From the NCBI RefSeq assembly GCF_031157375.1, contig NZ_JAVIFV010000003.1, forward strand, positions 186,001-250,000: a stretch of DNA of 64,000 bases, in the 5' to 3' direction. The notes below the pieces were generated by a model. The model searched no databases. It was given only the letters and a program-made list of their open reading frames with translations, and was not told the DNA's origin. Shown one piece after another: positions 43,729 through 51,532 of the stretch. This DNA is from Sphingosinicella sp. LHD-64 (GTDB taxonomy: Bacteria > Pseudomonadota > Alphaproteobacteria > Sphingomonadales > Sphingomonadaceae). The position numbers and the translations under genes are program-made. Position 1 is the stretch's first letter, and each line of letters opens with the position of its first letter.

Positions 43729-44514
43729 TCACGCCGCCAGCCGCTTTTCCATCAGCAGGCTGGCGATCCGGTGGGTCCGGGCATTGTCGACATCGACCGC
43801 ATAGGCGCCGTCGTCGAGGATGATGCGCGACGCCCGGATCCCGAACCTCTTGCCGATCCGGCGCATCGCCTCCTCGGTCGTCACCCGGCCGAAGCGCATG
43901 CGGACGAGGTTCATGACGCCGAACGCCCGGGCGATCCGCATCGGATTCTTGAAGAACTGGCCACCCTCGCGGAACGCCTCGGCCGCCTTCAGTCCCTGCT
44001 GCGACAGCCCGTAGAGATTGCAGTTGGAAAAGCCGCCGTCGCGAAACCGGTAGAAATTGCGCTGCGCCTCGGGATGGGCGGCCTGGATGTCCTCCTTGCG
44101 GGCCAGCGCGACCACGGCGTCGTCGCCCGCCCGCAGCCGCGCCGCCACCTGCTCCACCGGCCCGGCCGCGAGCAGGACATTGTCGGCCGTGGTCACGACC
44201 ACCGGCCCGCTCGCACCTTCGGCGGCGGCATAGACGCTGTCGGCGATGTTGCCGGCCGCCGGCATGAAGCGGACCGGCAACGGCGAGGCCGTCGCAATGG
44301 CGGAGAGCTTCTCGTCCGCCCCCGCCTCGACCGAGATGCGGACGCTCGCAATGCCCTCGACCAGCTCCAGCCCGGCCAGCACATGGGCAAGCAGCGGCCT
44401 GCCCCGGATCGGCACCAGGCACTTGTGGGTCACTCCGGCCTCGGCGGCGAGCGGATCGAGCCTGCCGTCGCGCTGGGCGGCAAGCACCACGACGACGAGG
44501 TCCTTGGCCGTCAC
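43729..44514 (-). CDS. MobA-like NTP-transferase-fold protein, paralogue of the gene at 46391
   Basis: 261 residues from GTG 44514, which overlaps the ATP-grasp stop (GTGA). The N-terminus VVVVLAAQRDGRLDPLAAEAG then HKCLVPIRGRPLLAHVLAGLE is a divergent version of the nucleotidyltransferase signature (GxGxR...PK...GxP), with the Gly-rich loop replaced by QRDGR and PK by HK. PVVVTTADNVLLAAGPVEQ gives the D-x-N metal step. It resembles the 46391 protein in the same positions. It could form a CDP- or similar activated alcohol. Substrate unknown. Confidence 0.8.
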   Translation of the reverse strand: MTAKDLVVVVLAAQRDGRLDPLAAEAGVTHKCLVPIRGRPLLAHVLAGLELVEGIASVRISVEAGADEKLSAIATASPLPVRFMPAAGNIADSVYAAAEGASGPVVVTTADNVLLAAGPVEQVAARLRAGDDAVVALARKEDIQAAHPEAQRNFYRFRDGGFSNCNLYGLSQQGLKAAEAFREGGQFFKNPMRIARAFGVMNLVRMRFGRVTTEEAMRRIGKRFGIRASRIILDDGAYAVDVDNARTHRIASLLMEKRLAA

Positions 44515-45644
44515 GCCGCGCACTCCTCCGGCGCGCCGCGGCCGAACGCCCGCCCCGGCCGCTCGACCGTCTCGATCACCCCCTGACGCAGCAGGCTGTG
44601 CGCGACGATGGTCTCGACCAGCTCGGCATGGCTGACGCCGATCGAGCGCGCCGAACGGCTGATCGTCTTCTTCGACCAGAGGTTGCAGGAGAGATTGACC
44701 TCCATGAACCTCAAATCACCGGTGGCGGGATCGTAGCGGAACTCGAACCGGCCGTAGTCGAACGGCCACAGTTCCGGCAGCAGCGCTCGGACATGGGTGT
44801 CCAGCCGCGCCGCGACCTCCGCGTCCTCGACCCGCTCCAGCGGATCGTCGCCGCCGCCGGAGAGGTTGCGCTTCTCGGCATAGGAGCGCACCTCGTCCGG
44901 ACGGTCCGGCGGGCGGTAGCCTAGGCTCGGCAGCAGCCACGCCCCGTCCGCACCGACCACCGGCACGGCGAGATCGATCAGCGGCGCATAGGCTTCGAGG
45001 ATCACGTCGTGCCCGGCCGCGAGCAGCTCTTCGGCATGCTCCCTTGCCGCGGCCCAACCGTCATGAATACGCACGCCCCACGAGGCCGAGCTCGCATTGG
45101 GCTTCACCACCAGCCGGTCCCAGGCGAAGGCCGGCTCCGGCACCCCGCTTTGCCCCTGGCGGACGATCGCCCAGGGGGTCACCGGCACGCCGCGCCGCTC
45201 GGCGACGCATTTCATCAGATGCTTGTCGTCCGAAAGGCCGCGCAGGATCGGCGAGGCGCCGAGGAACGGCAGCGCGTGCCGGCGCAGCAACAGCGGCGCC
45301 AGCATCTCGCTGTTCACGAACCCGCCGCGGTTGAGCAGGGTGACGACGAAATCCGCGTCCGGGCGGTCGAACAGGGCCTCATAGCTGTTCGCCGCGACCA
45401 CGTTGAGGCCGACCTGGCGGAGCGTGGTCAGCATCTCGTGATGGTAGACGGCATGGGTGCCGTCCACCGCGTCCGGCTGGCCGCCGGCCAGCGCGTGCTT
45501 GGCAAGGAACAGGACCTTCAACCGCGCCTTGTCGGCCGCGGGAACCGACAGGATCGCCGGATGGGGCGGCGCCGATACGCGCGGCGACGCGCCCCAGAGG
45601 AGGGCAAGCCGCTCGTCGGGCGCGGTGCGGTGGCGGACGTCCAT
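44511..45644 (-). CDS. ATP-grasp ligase, D-Ala-D-Ala-ligase-like
   Basis: 377 residues. Visible parts of an ATP-grasp fold: an N-terminal Rossmann-like region (LKVLFLAKHALAGG), FLGASPILRGLSDDKHLMKCVAERRGVPV, the ATP lysine region RLVVKPNASSASWGVRIH, EAYAPLIDLAVPVVG, and the Mg site RFEFRYDPATGDLRFMEVNLSCNLWSKKT. It would join a carboxylate to an amine or other nucleophile with ATP. It sits in the CDP-alcohol cluster, coupled to the downstream nucleotidyltransferase (GTGA). It might add an amino acid to a surface component; this is inference. Confidence 0.85.
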   Translation of the reverse strand: MDVRHRTAPDERLALLWGASPRVSAPPHPAILSVPAADKARLKVLFLAKHALAGGQPDAVDGTHAVYHHEMLTTLRQVGLNVVAANSYEALFDRPDADFVVTLLNRGGFVNSEMLAPLLLRRHALPFLGASPILRGLSDDKHLMKCVAERRGVPVTPWAIVRQGQSGVPEPAFAWDRLVVKPNASSASWGVRIHDGWAAAREHAEELLAAGHDVILEAYAPLIDLAVPVVGADGAWLLPSLGYRPPDRPDEVRSYAEKRNLSGGGDDPLERVEDAEVAARLDTHVRALLPELWPFDYGRFEFRYDPATGDLRFMEVNLSCNLWSKKTISRSARSIGVSHAELVETIVAHSLLRQGVIETVERPGRAFGRGAPEECAA

Positions 45645-45711
45645 GGGGCCTGACTAGCCCGCAGGTGTGACCGGGTAAGGACGAAGCCGTGAAAGCTGTG
45701 CGACAGTGCGG

Positions 45712-46398
45712 TTACGGACGCTGCCAGTCCGCCACCGGCCAGCCCCGCTCGGCGGCGAGCCGGGCCAGCTTGCGCGACGGATTGACCGCCATCGGTTCGT
45801 CCGCCCATTCGAACACCGGGCGGTCCGAGGAGCTGTCGGAATAGAAGCGGACCGCCAGCCCGTCCCGCACCAGCGCCTCGCGGATCAGGAACTGCTCGAC
45901 CGCGGCGAGCTTGCTGTTGCCATAGACGTTGGCGCCGGCCAGCCCCGGGCCGACCCGCCCGTCGTCGCCCACCCGCACCTGCGTCGCGACCACGAAATCG
46001 AAGCCCAGCTGCCGGGCGATCGGCGCCGCATAGACTTCGTGTGCGGCGGTCGCGAGCACGAGCCTTGCCCCGTCCGCGCGATCCCTTTCGATCTGCGCCC
46101 GGGCACCCGGCCGGATGTTGCGCGCCAGCGTCGCCGCGGTGAAGGCGTCGATCGCCCGCGCCATCCGCGCCGCCGGCACGCGTCCCAGCATCACCGCCCA
46201 CATCGCCGATTTCAGCTGGTCGCGATCGAACGCGCCGAGCTTGTGCGCGATCATCAGCAGGGGGACGAGCGGCACGAGCAGCAGCCGCGCCGGCGCGATC
46301 AAAGCCGCGCTCTTCAGCAGGAACAGCGAATAGGTGGGCCGCCAGCTCACGGTGCGGTCGAGGTCGTAGATGGCAAGCAGCTGCCGGCCCTCAGCCAT
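45712..46398 (-). CDS. HAD-IB family phosphatase (PSP-like)
   Basis: 228 residues. The catalytic DxDxT motif is IYDLDRTVSW near the N-terminus; a helical cap with several hydrophobic helices follows (IAPARLLLVPLVPLLM), then motif II ATAAHE and motif III/IV YSDSSSDRPVFEWAD. The Ala-rich, Leu-rich cap suggests contact with the membrane or a lipid substrate. It would dephosphorylate a small phosphate ester in the neighbouring pathway. The start overlaps the 3' end of the upstream nucleotidyltransferase by 8 bases (TGA inside the start region). Confidence 0.88.
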   Translation of the reverse strand: MAEGRQLLAIYDLDRTVSWRPTYSLFLLKSAALIAPARLLLVPLVPLLMIAHKLGAFDRDQLKSAMWAVMLGRVPAARMARAIDAFTAATLARNIRPGARAQIERDRADGARLVLATAAHEVYAAPIARQLGFDFVVATQVRVGDDGRVGPGLAGANVYGNSKLAAVEQFLIREALVRDGLAVRFYSDSSSDRPVFEWADEPMAVNPSRKLARLAAERGWPVADWQRP

Positions 46399-47194
46399 GC
46401 TGCGCTTCCGCGATCAGGCGGGTGGCGAGCGCGTGGTCCTCGACCTTGTCGACGTCGATGCAGGCGACCGGGTCGCTGAGCTCGACGGCAGTGGCCGTCA
46501 GACCCAGCCGCTTGCCCGCCAGACGAAGGGCCTGTTTGAGCGACAGGAGCCGCAGCCCCACCCCGGCAAGCAACAGCGGCCCGAACGCCGCAACGATCTT
46601 GCCGCCCTTCTTGCGGTGCGCCTCGATCTCGCGCCAGAACGCGATCGCGATCCGCGCGCGCGCGTTCGAGAGCAGGAACAGATTGGCGCCGGAATAAGCG
46701 CCGGCACGGAAGCGGATCCAGGTGCGCCGGCCGTCGAACCGGGTGCGGTAGAGCCGCTCCTCGACCATAGCGACGGCCAGATCGGTGCCGGCCGCCCTCG
46801 CCCTGTCCAGAAACTCGTCGATCATCGCGCGGGTCAGCAGCGGATGATCGCCGGTCGTGACCAGCACCGGCTGGTCCGGCGTCGGCGTCCCCATCGCGTC
46901 GAGCACGGTCTGGCTGATCGTGCTCGCGCCGGCCGCGAAGGTGACCTTGGGATGCCCGGTCAGCCAGGCGCAGCCCGGATCGGCGCCGAGGACGGCGGCA
47001 TCGGCGCCGAGGATGGTGACCCGGCCGATCGCCGGATGCCCGACCAGCGTCCGCGCGATCCGCGACAGCATCGGCTCGCCGGCCAGCGGCACCAGCACCT
47101 TCAGCGGAACATGGAAATGGTCGGCAAGCGCGTCCGGCCCGGGCCGCTGGCCCGCGAGCAACAAGGCGTGGACGGAACCGGCGGGCGCGATCAT
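46391..47194 (-). CDS. MobA-like nucleotidyltransferase in the CDP-alcohol cluster
   Basis: 267 residues. HALLLAGQRPGPDALADHF then LKVLVPLAGEPMLSRIARTL is a divergent nucleotidyltransferase start, sharing the LAxQRxGxDxLA...KxLVPxxGxPxL pattern with the gene at 43729. VLVTTGDHPLLTRAMIDEF provides the acidic metal site. The C-terminal half has a long helical hydrophobic segment (FGPLLLAGVGLRLLSLKQAL). Probably makes a CDP-activated alcohol for the phosphotransferase encoded divergently 116 bases away. Substrate unknown. Confidence 0.82.
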   Translation of the reverse strand: MIAPAGSVHALLLAGQRPGPDALADHFHVPLKVLVPLAGEPMLSRIARTLVGHPAIGRVTILGADAAVLGADPGCAWLTGHPKVTFAAGASTISQTVLDAMGTPTPDQPVLVTTGDHPLLTRAMIDEFLDRARAAGTDLAVAMVEERLYRTRFDGRRTWIRFRAGAYSGANLFLLSNARARIAIAFWREIEAHRKKGGKIVAAFGPLLLAGVGLRLLSLKQALRLAGKRLGLTATAVELSDPVACIDVDKVEDHALATRLIAEAQHG

Positions 47195-47310
47195 CGCGCG
47201 CCCATAGCCAAGCGCCTCCCTGTCATCAATCTTTCACGACGCCTTCGCCGGCCGGCAAAGAATGCGCGCGCTTCCCCGCGAAAGCTGTTAGCAGACCGCC
47301 AAGAGGGACA

Positions 47311-48474
47311 ATGACCGATCAGCTTTCGACCGCGCCGACCGTCGCCGTGATCGGCGACAATCCGACCCGCCTGTGGGGCATCAGCATGACCGAACGCACC
47401 CGCCGCATCGCGCGCGCGGCGAAGCTCGGCTGGGCCGAACCCGGCGTCGACGGCGCCGCCCCGGCCGCGCCGGTCGTGCTCGTCAATCCGGCCTTCGCCT
47501 TCGATCCCGGCTGGCTGCGCCATGTCGCGGCGCATCCCGGCCTTGCGCTGACCAAAGGCGGCGTGCCGGTGCTGGCCCATGCGACGAGCGACGCCACCGC
47601 GGCGGCAGTTGCCGGCGCGATGCAGGACGGCACGGTGCTCGACGCGCCGGGGCTGGAGACCGTCGCCTATGAAAGCGGGCCGACGCTGGAGAACGAGGAG
47701 CTGCGCAAGCGCGAGGTGCCGTTCCTCGACCGGCTGGAGCCCGCCACGGTGCGGTCGCTCGAGCGGGCAAGCTATGCCGGCGCCTACAAGGGCGTGACCG
47801 ACCTGCTCACCAAATATCTCTGGCCGGAATGGGCGCTGGTCCTCACCCGGCTCGCGGCGCGGATCGGGATGACGCCCAATATGGTGACGTCGGTCGGCGC
47901 GATCCTCTGCGTCATCGCCACGATCTGCTTCTTCAGGGGCTGGTACTGGACCGGGCTCGGGCTCGGGCTCGTTTTCATGGTGCTCGACACGGTCGACGGC
48001 AAGCTCGCCCGTTGCACCATCACCTCGTCCTGGTGGGGCAACATCTTCGACCACGGCATCGATCTCATCCATCCGCCGATCTGGTGGTATGCCTGGGGCG
48101 TCGGGCTCGGCGCCGTCGGGCTGGCCCTTACCGACACGATGTTCTGGACGGTGATGGCGGTGATGCTCGCCGGCTATGTGCTCCAGCGGCTGATCGAAGG
48201 CGCCTTCATCCAGCAGTTCGGCATGCACATCCATGTGTGGCGCAAGTTCGATTCGGACTTCCGGCTGGTCACGGCGCGGCGCAACCCGAACATGGTGATC
48301 CTGTTCGCCTCGCTGCTGTTCGGACGCCCGGACGTCGGGCTGATCGCGGTGGCGGTGTGGACAATGCTCTCGCTCGTCGTCCACCTGGTCCAGCTGGTTC
48401 AGGCCTTCATCGCGCGGGCGCGGGGCCAGAAGCTGGTTTCCTGGCTGGCGACGGACGCCTCGGCCAGCACCTGA
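47311..48474 (+). CDS. CDP-alcohol phosphotransferase with N-terminal nucleotidyltransferase-like domain
   Basis: 387 residues. The complete CDP-alcohol phosphotransferase signature is present: Asp226, Asp229-Gly230, Ala233-Arg234, then after eight residues Gly243, Asp247 and Asp251 (in FDHGID). About six membrane helices surround it (roughly 180-370). The first 150 residues (VAVIGDNPTRLWGISMTERTRRIARAA...) read like a degenerate nucleotidyltransferase fold, an arrangement seen in archaeal inositol-phosphate cytidylyltransferase/phosphotransferase fusions. It transfers a phospho-alcohol from a CDP donor to an acceptor alcohol, often a lipid. Acceptor unknown. Its 3' end overlaps the convergent gene by 76 bases. 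Confidence 0.88.
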   Translation: MTDQLSTAPTVAVIGDNPTRLWGISMTERTRRIARAAKLGWAEPGVDGAAPAAPVVLVNPAFAFDPGWLRHVAAHPGLALTKGGVPVLAHATSDATAAAVAGAMQDGTVLDAPGLETVAYESGPTLENEELRKREVPFLDRLEPATVRSLERASYAGAYKGVTDLLTKYLWPEWALVLTRLAARIGMTPNMVTSVGAILCVIATICFFRGWYWTGLGLGLVFMVLDTVDGKLARCTITSSWWGNIFDHGIDLIHPPIWWYAWGVGLGAVGLALTDTMFWTVMAVMLAGYVLQRLIEGAFIQQFGMHIHVWRKFDSDFRLVTARRNPNMVILFASLLFGRPDVGLIAVAVWTMLSLVVHLVQLVQAFIARARGQKLVSWLATDASAST

Positions 48475-49568
48475 ACGATCTCCTCGGCGGCACGGGCCGG
48501 CGCGGCGGCGGTTGCGTCGCCGAGCGCCCGCGCGACGAAGGCCGTCTGGAACGGTTCGTAGAGCGGGTGCCGTCCCGCCGCCGCCTCGATCGTCGGCCAG
48601 AACGCTGCGTGATCGCGCACGACATCGCCGCAGCCCTGATAGTCCTCCGCGCCCTCGCGCCACGACATGTTCGGTGCCTCGAGCAGCACGCAGGGACGGG
48701 GCCGGGCGAGATATTCGACGATCTGGCTGGAAACGTCGCCGACATAGAGATCGGCCATCTCGGTATAGCTGCCGTCGACCATCGCGAAGCTGCCGGTATC
48801 GACATGGACGTGCGGTGCCTCTCCGGCCGCCGCGAGCACCGCGAGCGCACCGGGATCGCGCTCGAACAGGCGCTGATGCGGCGCGAGCACGACATTGTAG
48901 CGATCCTGCGCCACCAGCCTTTCGACGATCTCGCGCCCCCAGTCCCACCAGGACGAGCAGTAACGCTGCCAGTGCGGCGTGTAGAGAAGCACCGGCCGGT
49001 CGTCGGCGAAGAGATCGCCGCGGCGCAGCGACGGCCGGAAGCTCGCCTTGGCGTAGCCGGTCTCGACGATCCGCTCGGCGCGGATGCCATGGGCGAGATG
49101 ATCGGTCGTGTGGAACCCGCTCGGCACCAGCAGCCGCGCGGCGTAGCGCAGCCGCCCGTCGCGATTGTAGTTGAGCGGCCCGGCGCCATGAACGGTGAAC
49201 AGATAGCGCGCCTTTGCGGGCAGCAGCCGTGGCAGCCAAAGGCTGGTCTGCTCGGCGCAGACCACGACACGCGTCCCGATCAGCCGCGGCGCGAGCCGCG
49301 CCAGCATCGGCATCTTTGCCGGCAGCGGCGGATTGCGGCCGGGCTCGAAGCCATTGAGTTTCAGGAAACCGGGCGCCCGCCGCAACCGCACGTTGCGATG
49401 CTGCGGCCCCAGCCAGTCGGCGACCAGGTCCTCATGGGCGGAGGTGCTGACCCACAGGTCGATCGGCAGATCGGGCCGTCGCCGGGCCAATGCGTCGACA
49501 ATCGGCCACAGATGCGGCGCGAGCAGCATCTCGCCAAGGAACAGGAATGCAACATCGCTGCGGCCCAT
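48399..49568 (-). CDS. CDP-glycerol glycerophosphotransferase-like protein (TagB/TagF relative)
   Basis: 389 residues. A GT-B-like arrangement is suggested by LYTPHWQRYCSSWWDWG, VVLAPHQRLFERDPG and the late segment MADLYVGDVSSQIVEYLARPRPCVLLEAPN, which resemble the C-terminal part of teichoic-acid glycerophosphotransferases; VVVCAEQTSLWLP and FTVHGAGPLNYN occur in the N-half. Such enzymes add polyol-phosphate units to a membrane-bound acceptor. Finding one with a CDP-alcohol phosphotransferase and nucleotidyltransferases suggests a phospho-polyol product. Convergent overlap with the previous gene is 76 bases. Confidence 0.78.
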   Translation of the reverse strand: MGRSDVAFLFLGEMLLAPHLWPIVDALARRRPDLPIDLWVSTSAHEDLVADWLGPQHRNVRLRRAPGFLKLNGFEPGRNPPLPAKMPMLARLAPRLIGTRVVVCAEQTSLWLPRLLPAKARYLFTVHGAGPLNYNRDGRLRYAARLLVPSGFHTTDHLAHGIRAERIVETGYAKASFRPSLRRGDLFADDRPVLLYTPHWQRYCSSWWDWGREIVERLVAQDRYNVVLAPHQRLFERDPGALAVLAAAGEAPHVHVDTGSFAMVDGSYTEMADLYVGDVSSQIVEYLARPRPCVLLEAPNMSWREGAEDYQGCGDVVRDHAAFWPTIEAAAGRHPLYEPFQTAFVARALGDATAAAPARAAEEIVQVLAEASVASQETSFWPRARAMKA

Positions 49569-49614
49569 GGCCTTCCTACTTCACGCTACGGCACGCCACG
49601 ACCACTGGACGATT

Positions 49615-50319
49615 CTAACCCTTCCAACCCGCAATATGCTCGACGCGGTCGATCTCCACCCAATGGCCCTTGTCGATCACCACGCCGTGGACGGGGCCAG
49701 TCTTCGCCAAGTCGTCGATGATCGCATGGTGGAAGCTCTGGATGCCGTTCTCGGCACGCATCGCCTTGTCGAGCCCGGCCCGGTACACGCCGCCGTCGTC
49801 GACGCTCGCGATGACGCCGAGGGAATGGAAACGGGCACGCGACGGATTGAGCGTCTTCGCCACCTGACGCACCAGTCCTGCCTCCATTTCCACCAGCATT
49901 TCGTCCAGAACCGGCGAAACCATCGGCTCGACGAAAAGGTTCACACCCTGCTGAATTCGCGACAGGCCGTCTGAAATCAGCGTCGGCTCGTAGACCGTGT
50001 CGCCGTTCAGGATCGCATAGCGGCCCTCGAGCAGGTCGCGGGCCGCCCAGACGCTGGAGATGCTGCTCGACACCGCCCAGAACGGGTTAAAACGCAGTTC
50101 CACGTCGTCGCCGCGCGCCGCGAGATGGTCCGCGAGGCGATCGATGCGATAGCCGCCGACGACGATGCGGCGCTTGACCCCGGCCGCGGCAAGCGCGTCG
50201 AGCTGGTGATCGACGATCGCGCGGCCGCCGACCTCGATCAGGCATTTCGGCCGGTCGGCGGTGAGCGGCAGCAGCCGCGTGCCCTTGCCGGCGTTCAGCA
50301 GGATGGCGGTGTCGATCAT
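49615..50319 (-). CDS. Sugar-phosphate/phosphocholine cytidylyltransferase-like nucleotidyltransferase
   Basis: 234 residues from ATG 50319. This is the most classical nucleotidyltransferase of the cluster: AILLNAGKGTRLLPLTADRPKCLIEVGG, with the complete GxGTR and PKCL motifs, IVVGGYRIDRL, YAILNGDTVYEP (metal Asp), and a C-terminal VVIDKGHWVEID. It resembles LicC-type phosphocholine and glucose-1-phosphate nucleotidyltransferases. It probably activates a phospho-alcohol or sugar phosphate as its CDP/NDP form for the neighbouring transferases. Divergent from the FMN enzyme, 64 bases away. Confidence 0.88.
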   Translation of the reverse strand: MIDTAILLNAGKGTRLLPLTADRPKCLIEVGGRAIVDHQLDALAAAGVKRRIVVGGYRIDRLADHLAARGDDVELRFNPFWAVSSSISSVWAARDLLEGRYAILNGDTVYEPTLISDGLSRIQQGVNLFVEPMVSPVLDEMLVEMEAGLVRQVAKTLNPSRARFHSLGVIASVDDGGVYRAGLDKAMRAENGIQSFHHAIIDDLAKTGPVHGVVIDKGHWVEIDRVEHIAGWKG

Positions 50320-50383: not shown

Positions 50384-51532
50384 ATGAATGTCAGGCACTG
50401 CCACAATATCGACGACTTCCGGCGGCTGGCGAAGCGGCGGCTGCCCGGGCCGGTGTTCGACTATATCGACGGCGGCGCCGACGACGAGGTGACCCTCAAA
50501 CGCAATACCGCCGCCTTCGACGATTGCGATCTCGTCCCCAACGTGCTCGCCGGGGTCACCGACATCGACATGTCGGTCACCGTCATGGGCCGCAGGATCG
50601 AGATGCCGCTGATGCTCTCGCCGACCGCGATGCAGCGGCTGTTCCACTGGGAGGGCGAGCGTGCCGTCGGCCGGGCGGTCGAGAAGTTCGGCACCTGGTT
50701 CGGCATCTCGACGATCGGCACGGTGAGCATCGAGGAGATCGGCCGGACGGTTTCCACGCCCAAGCTCTTCCAGCTCTACGTCCACCGCGATCCCGGCCTC
50801 AACCGCGCGCTCGTCCAGCGCTGCAAGGACGCCGGCTTCGATGCGATCGCACTCACCGTCGACACGATCGTCGGGGGCAACCGCGAGCGCGACCTCCGCA
50901 CCGGCTTCACCACGCCGCCGCGCTGGACGCCGCGATCACTGGCGAGCTTCGCCGCCCATCCCGGCTGGACCTTCGACTATCTGCTGAGGGAACCCTTCGC
51001 GCTCGCCAATGTGAGGGACTTCGTGACGGACGGCAGCTCGGTCGCCTCGGGAGTCGCCGAATATATCGACAAGATGTTCGATCCGGCGATGGACTGGAAG
51101 GCGGCCGAGGCGATCCGGGCGGACTGGGGCGGCCCGTTCGCCCTCAAGGGCGTGATGTCGGTCGCCGACGCCCGCCGCGCCGTCGAGATCGGGGCGAGCA
51201 CGATCTACGTCTCCAACCATGGCGGCCGCCAGCTGGACGGCAGCCGCGCCCCGTTCGACCAGCTCGCCGAGATCGTCGACGCAGTCGGCGACAAGCTGGA
51301 GGTGATCTGCGACGGCGGCATCCGCCGCGGCAGCCACGTGCTGAAGGCGCTCAGCGTCGGCGCCACCGCCTGCTCGGGCGGCCGCCTCTATCTCTACGCG
51401 CTGGCGGCCGGCGGCCAGGCCGGCGTCGAGTGCGCGCTCGGCAAGCTCCAGGCCGAGATCGCCCGCGGCATGCGCCTCATGGGCGTCACCCGGATCGACC
51501 AGCTCTCCCGCGACAACCTGCGCTGGCGCTAG
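50384..51532 (+). CDS. FMN-dependent alpha-hydroxyacid dehydrogenase (LldD-like)
   Basis: 382 residues from ATG 50384. The fold starts DDFRRLAKRRLPGPVFDYIDGGADDEVTL; the active-site motif SNHGGRQLDGS carries the catalytic His and Arg, and CDGGIRRGSHVLKALSVGA binds the FMN phosphate. This family includes L-lactate dehydrogenase, glycolate and mandelate oxidases. The close similarity in layout to LldD suggests respiratory oxidation of L-lactate or a related acid at the membrane, but the substrate is not proved. It shares a CTAG stop with the convergent YfiB-like gene. Confidence 0.9.
   Translation: MNVRHCHNIDDFRRLAKRRLPGPVFDYIDGGADDEVTLKRNTAAFDDCDLVPNVLAGVTDIDMSVTVMGRRIEMPLMLSPTAMQRLFHWEGERAVGRAVEKFGTWFGISTIGTVSIEEIGRTVSTPKLFQLYVHRDPGLNRALVQRCKDAGFDAIALTVDTIVGGNRERDLRTGFTTPPRWTPRSLASFAAHPGWTFDYLLREPFALANVRDFVTDGSSVASGVAEYIDKMFDPAMDWKAAEAIRADWGGPFALKGVMSVADARRAVEIGASTIYVSNHGGRQLDGSRAPFDQLAEIVDAVGDKLEVICDGGIRRGSHVLKALSVGATACSGGRLYLYALAAGGQAGVECALGKLQAEIARGMRLMGVTRIDQLSRDNLRWR

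Follow-up and report, generated by a model that had tools for sequence, protein, structure and literature searches.

Seven adjacent genes at positions 43729–50319 of a 64,000-nucleotide stretch of the Sphingosinicella sp. LHD-64 genome (the window) form at least two modules and not one unknown cluster. The first module is predicted to be the sphingomonad form of the Caulobacter crescentus pathway from ceramide to ceramide phosphoglycerate (CPG) and ceramide diphosphoglycerate (CPG2). Its new part, unseen in the initial annotation of this DNA, is a pair of genes for a cytidylyltransferase (NT3w) and a TagF-like transferase (GPT), together with the relation of this pair to the Caulobacter cytidylyltransferase CpgD. 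We consider it probable that the cluster makes a phosphosphingolipid head group, with NT3w making a cytidine diphosphate (CDP) derivative, CDP-X, and GPT transferring phospho-X from it to the ceramide head group. All seven open reading frames (ORFs) were recovered where the initial annotation had placed them, with the family matches and catalytic motifs that it had described:

43729–44523, minus strand: NT1, MobA-like nucleotidyltransferase paired with the ATP-grasp protein
44511–45644, minus strand: ATP-grasp protein, D-Ala-D-Ala-ligase-like; a separate module, of doubtful membership
45712–46398, minus strand: HAD-IB phosphatase (HAD 4e-25), candidate replacement of Caulobacter CC_1158
46391–47194, minus strand: NT2, CC_1153-type (CofC/IspD-like) nucleotidyltransferase (IspD 1.2e-6)
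47311–48474, plus strand: CpgA-type (CC_1159-type) CDP-alcohol phosphotransferase of 387 amino acids (CDP-OH_P_transf 5e-8, complete motif)
48399–49568, minus strand: GPT, TagF-like CDP-glycerol glycerophosphotransferase-fold protein, by model and family profile
49615–50319, minus strand: NT3w, COG1213-type cytidylyltransferase in a sister clade of CpgD, by tree and pocket residues

The NT1 and ATP-grasp genes overlap by 13 base pairs and the HAD and NT2 genes by 8, while the CDP-alcohol phosphotransferase and GPT genes are convergent and share 76 base pairs at their 3' ends (48399–48474). A convergent arrangement resembling that of the window was also seen at one other locus (L044). The predicted folds, including those of the three nucleotidyltransferases (NTP_transf_3 2e-10 and 4e-12; NTP_transferase 1e-11), stand as first described, with the qualification that the ATP-grasp protein scores below every curated cut-off and that GPT alone has no Pfam match.

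Relation to the Caulobacter pathway

In C. crescentus, CC_1152 (CpgD), CC_1153, CC_1158, CC_1159 (CpgA), CC_1160 (CpgB, ceramide kinase) and CC_1161 (CpgC) turn ceramide into CPG and CPG2 (PMC11324152). CpgD is a cytidine triphosphate (CTP):phosphoglycerate cytidylyltransferase whose product is CDP-glycerate; the transfer of phosphoglycerate from CDP-glycerate to CPG by CpgA is biochemically unproven in Caulobacter (PMC12275187). Orthologues of the pathway have already been reported from Sphingomonas wittichii (PMC11324152, PMC12275187), where the genes are likewise scattered and CC_1158 is absent (PMC11324152). The core of the window cluster, first described as uncharacterised, belongs to this pathway through its counterparts of CC_1159/CpgA, CC_1153 and CC_1152/CpgD.

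Our comparisons covered 98 loci of relatives, 79 carrying a CpgA-type gene and 19 an ATP-grasp gene. The 79 distinct CpgA-type loci come from the best 80 named-genome matches to an alignment of the window CDP-alcohol protein and are nearly all from named Sphingomonadales; gene starts in unannotated genomes were set mechanically. The window protein is 54–73% identical to its relatives in these 79 loci, around which NT3-, NT2-, GPT- and HAD-type genes recur in variable order, and the finding of core genes together in so many loci indicates co-occurrence above chance. Of the 79 loci, 41 also have CpgB and CpgC in the vicinity of the CpgA-type gene. As a single unit of seven, as initially envisaged, the cluster is not conserved: the CDP-alcohol, NT2 and NT3 genes, often with GPT and HAD, recur together, and in none of the 98 loci does the ATP-grasp/NT1 pair lie beside the CDP-alcohol gene.

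More distant alphaproteobacterial relatives (41–46% identical) allowed their neighbours to be compared with the published CC_1152–CC_1168 order. Beside the orthologous CDP-alcohol genes of diverse alphaproteobacteria lie CpgB (a DAGK-type kinase), CpgC, a CC_1158-type phosphoesterase, LptF2/LptG2, a cerS-like GNAT protein, a CC_1153-type nucleotidyltransferase and Spt, acyl carrier protein (ACP) and AMP-binding genes. For example, loci L125 and L126 both contain a DAGK-type kinase, a CC_1158-like metallophosphoesterase, LptF/LptG-type permeases and GNAT-like and NT2-like genes, to which L126 adds a CpgC-like gene, a flippase, a GPT and an AMP-binding gene; L131 additionally has an Spt-like aminotransferase and an AMP-binding gene. 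These neighbours identify the loci as the published Caulobacter cluster. In L100, cerR, ACP, Spt, CpgC, CpgB, phosphoesterase, LptG2, LptF2, GNAT, nucleotidyltransferase, CpgA, GPT and NT3w genes all occur together. This contig (JAUSQI010000104.1) is binned as a metagenome-assembled genome of Stagnimonas, a gammaproteobacterial name, which points to horizontal transfer or misbinning. A second, distinct CDP-alcohol phosphotransferase, outside the published Caulobacter set, was observed in the phosphosphingolipid cluster of some alphaproteobacteria (L125:8126-9337, with relatives in L124, L129, L131 and L136).

We assign the 47311 protein to the CpgA (CC_1159) type by gene-order orthology, its relatives being accompanied by CpgB, CpgC, CC_1158-type, LptF2/G2 and CC_1153-type genes. 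Its motif (DxxDGxxAR-x8-GxxxDxxxD) is complete, and the initial reading of an intact Asp226–Asp251 site holds residue by residue (D226, D229, G230, A233, R234, G243, D247 and D251). The predicted structure, with a mean predicted local distance difference test (pLDDT) score of 86.5, matches AF2299 (Z 22.6, 314 residues) and IPCT-DIPPS (Z 21.3) over nearly its full length, and its first ~150 residues (about 6–155) match nucleotidyltransferases (MurU Z 8.3, IPCT Z 7.7). It therefore carries a reduced or degenerate fourth nucleotidyltransferase-like domain in front of the membrane catalytic domain. The protein thus resembles AF2299 and IPCT-DIPPS in domain composition, but is only 15% identical to them, has a shortened N-domain and stands in a sphingolipid context.

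NT2, whose IspD score exceeds the Pfam cut-off, falls in a clade of nucleotidyltransferases that adjoin CpgA/CpgD genes. The HAD protein, which carries a DLDRT motif, is a candidate replacement of the CC_1158 phosphoesterase: among 117 loci, a HAD gene lies near the CpgA-type gene in 31 and a CC_1158-type gene in 15, and both in none (Fisher P=0.010, ignoring kinship). The Caulobacter study had expected another gene to substitute partly for CC_1158 (PMC11324152).

Further pathway genes are found elsewhere in the same genome, consistent with a phosphosphingolipid producer. Contig C6 holds CpgC (41%, 2.6e-48), Spt (52%), ACP and a fatty-acid hydroxylase within 11 kilobases, and contig C1 a CpgB candidate (26–31% identity, with scores as high as 102 bits against relatives of CpgB) adjoining an LptF-like permease gene. 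CpgC was found in 40 of 40 genomes tested. Of the three CDP-alcohol proteins of the genome, only that of the window is of the CpgA type. Contig C4 carries a CpgD-type gene (G000:C4:316174-316911). The genome thus has in common with CC_1152–CC_1161 the CpgA-type, CC_1153-type, CpgC and Spt genes and, outside the window, a CpgD-type gene, with the same neighbours in relatives; it differs in having NT3w beside the CpgD-type gene (in relatives, instead of it), a TagF-like transferase, a HAD protein for CC_1158, and scattered genes.

The NT3w and GPT pair

Substrate contacts of CpgD include Arg16, Asn90, Asn110, Ser170 and Trp201 (PMC13228409), and we mapped these positions through the published numbering and conserved motifs. 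The collected NT3 sequences divide into 29 that group with the window gene (clade support 1.0) and 60 of the type of the C4 gene (CpgD type). The Asn90 position is Ser in 29/29 of the NT3w type and Asn in 60/60 of the CpgD type; at the Trp201 position stands Tyr or Phe in 29/29 and Trp in 56/60, respectively, and the residues that follow are His-His in the NT3w type and Tyr-Leu in the CpgD type. NT3w of the window therefore lacks the glycerate/Mg contacts Asn90 and Trp201. It shares the COG1213 fold and other pocket positions with CpgD (PMC12275187, PMC13228409), from which it departs by Asn90 to Ser, Trp201 to Phe/Tyr and a clade of its own. We read NT3w from these residues as a different enzyme, or a strongly changed CpgD.

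The C4 gene has Asn90, Trp201 and the catalytic residues, and scores 382 bits on the CpgD-type profile against 179 bits on the other; residues and score together make it the likely CpgD of this genome. A gene of this type is absent from 28/28 other NT3w genomes, all of which have CpgC, whereas the window's genome has both types. The C4 gene (L156:9725-10923) sits immediately 3' of a HIT-domain ORF, and no other sphingolipid gene was recognised nearby. Profile searches of the PDB ranked LicC, MurU and PntC first for the NT3w type and LicC first for the CpgD type; as a guide to X these rankings were uninformative and were set aside.

TagF uses CDP-glycerol as donor. By fold and profile GPT is a TagF/TarL-like protein: its AlphaFold model (pLDDT 91.9) has TagF as closest structure (Z 24.7, 3.2 Å, 319 residues), and a profile of 31 family members matches only two PDB sequences, Cps3D (2.6e-4) and TarL (9.7e-4). 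PF04464 matches 12 of the 31 members (best 2.3e-5), with the window GPT itself falling short of the curated score. In common with TagF, TarL and Cps3D it has a full-length GT-B fold and the D-x-S-S motif region; unlike them it has no membrane-targeting extension, a COG1213-type instead of a TagD-type partner and a sphingolipid genomic context, at 13–17% identity. Among open-licence PubMed Central articles we found no paper on a sphingolipid together with a glycerophosphotransferase in alphaproteobacteria. In one alphaproteobacterial genus (L126:16346-17473 and L127) a GPT relative lies between a flippase gene and an AMP-binding (aasR-like) gene of the ceramide cluster, linking the TagF-like family to sphingolipids outside Sphingomonadales too.

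GPT directly adjoins NT3w on the same strand in 28/29 loci, and the GPTs so paired form one clade (support 0.94). The 44 classable loci comprise 25 with NT3w and that GPT clade, 19 with a CpgD-type gene and other GPTs, and none mixed (Fisher 7e-13, ignoring kinship). Such co-segregation would be expected if one enzyme made the donor and the transferase used it.

Proposed head-group assembly and its alternatives

We postulate that CpgB would phosphorylate ceramide and CpgC would then give ceramide-phosphoglycerate, both being encoded elsewhere in the genome, and that the CpgA-type 47311 protein would use a CDP donor to add a phospho-alcohol unit to the lipid. A need for NT2 would parallel that for CC_1153 in Caulobacter, and the HAD phosphatase could take the CC_1158 step. 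NT3w would convert CTP and a phospho-alcohol, X-P, to CDP-X, with X probably not the glycerate of CpgD, and GPT would pass one or more phospho-X units from CDP-X to the ceramide head group. The present analysis shows the gene content, the synteny, the clades, the residues of the pocket and the folds, while the roles of CpgA–D and CC_1153 are taken from the Caulobacter papers; we infer the serial action of NT3w and GPT, the difference of X from glycerate and the HAD substitution, as well as the step order, what X is and how many units are added. The resulting head group is probably different from, or longer than, the only one known. The initial suggestion that an activated phospho-alcohol is passed to a membrane acceptor and then extended is in this sense probably right, although its final carboxylate ligation finds no support, the ATP-grasp and NT1 genes being a separate pair. 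Among the products then considered, a sphingolipid head group fits best. More speculatively, NT3w and GPT may give ceramide a poly(phospho-X) chain, a sphingolipid-anchored, teichoic-acid-like anionic polymer of the Gram-negative outer membrane, with a CDP donor other than CDP-glycerate; we consider this possible but less likely than not. Anionic sphingolipids let Caulobacter live without lipopolysaccharide (LPS), and one phosphosphingolipid head-group pathway has been partly worked out so far; if our proposal is true, sphingomonads have a head group so far undescribed. They would offer testable differences in a cytidylyltransferase replacing CpgD, a teichoic-acid-type transferase travelling with it and a HAD protein maybe replacing the dispensable CC_1158. 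The pocket-residue reading makes the substrate question testable with two purified proteins.

Several observations count against the proposal. NT3w keeps the general cytidylyltransferase residues R16, K26, N110 and D112 of CpgD, plus S170, so that CDP-glycerate could still be its product; CpgA is conserved in genomes with NT3w only, so NT3w may simply feed CpgA; and the structural match of GPT to UDP-GlcNAc 2-epimerases, which share the GT-B fold, comes close to that with TagF (Z 23.2 against 24.7). The pathway genes of this genome are spread over four contigs, the loci share ancestry and were all selected by their likeness to a single window protein, so that the counts are not independent, and orthology with the Caulobacter proteins was judged by gene order and domain content. 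NT3w might be no more than a divergent CpgD that still turns CTP and phosphoglycerate into CDP-glycerate, GPT adding further phosphoglycerates to give CPG2 or a longer poly-phosphoglycerate ceramide. Replacement of CpgD by NT3w in 28 genomes that retain CpgA, CpgC and the CC_1153-type gene would fit this, as would the fact that NT3w retains most of the catalytic residues and two of the contacts to glycerate, and the GPT relatives beside CpgD-type genes in 19 loci. However, the Asn90 and Trp201 positions and the next residues are replaced throughout the NT3w type, the GPT clade switches with the NT3 type and the window's genome keeps both types, and we regard a diverged CpgD as possible but doubtful.

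Products unrelated to sphingolipids appear less likely still. A phospho-polyol decoration of capsule or LPS would suit the TagF-like transferase and the Polysacc_synt-type flippase found in 48/79 loci, but it is made very unlikely by the recurrence of CpgB, CpgC, Spt and ceramide synthesis genes in the neighbourhood. Synthesis of a compatible solute of the di-inositol-phosphate type, suggested by the structural resemblance of 47311 to AF2299 and IPCT-DIPPS, is highly improbable given membrane-lipid neighbours throughout and a weak NCBIfam DIPPS match (2e-5; cut-off 580 bits). The genes might instead constitute one seven-gene pathway, in which the ATP-grasp protein joins an amine to the carboxylate of a head-group glycerate and NT1 activates a further phospho-compound. 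Tight packing with overlapping same-strand genes, the conserved ATP-grasp/NT1 pair and the free carboxylate on glycerate head groups speak for it. Yet the ATP-grasp gene occurs in 0/79 CpgA-type loci and the CpgA-type gene in 0/19 ATP-grasp loci, four genomes (G026, G029, G042 and G045) have the ATP-grasp gene with no CpgA-type match, and sdhB, which also adjoins the window cluster, lies near each module independently (10/19 ATP-grasp and 29/79 CpgA-type loci). The common sdhB neighbourhood suggests that the modules may be neighbours because both inserted at the same site. A single pathway is therefore unlikely; it is simplest to suppose that two modules became established at one chromosomal location, the ATP-grasp/NT1 pair probably having a separate function. 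Our preferred reading remains head-group synthesis with CDP-X as donor for GPT.

The ATP-grasp/NT1 module and neighbouring genes

The ATP-grasp protein scores slightly below the cut-off for Dala_Dala_lig_C (4.5e-5) and far below that of the D-Ala-D-Ala ligase model (5e-13). NT1 belongs to a clade (support 1.0) whose members adjoin ATP-grasp genes in other Sphingomonadales, apart from NT2. Molybdenum cofactor and cell-wall precursor synthesis were rejected as roles, the MobA/MocA, Ddl and MurU equivalog scores all being far below curated cut-offs.

On the other side of the cluster, a flavin mononucleotide (FMN)-dependent alpha-hydroxyacid dehydrogenase gene (50384–51532, plus strand) adjoins NT3w. 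It was not retained as a cluster member, no homologue being found in the 79 CpgA-type loci; a 74% homologue lies beside an ATP-grasp gene and sdhB in L196. In two further loci (L189:6839-8026 and L190), the gene directly next to the window-type ATP-grasp gene encodes another ATP-grasp protein, which belongs to the sugar-transfer-associated family PF14397.

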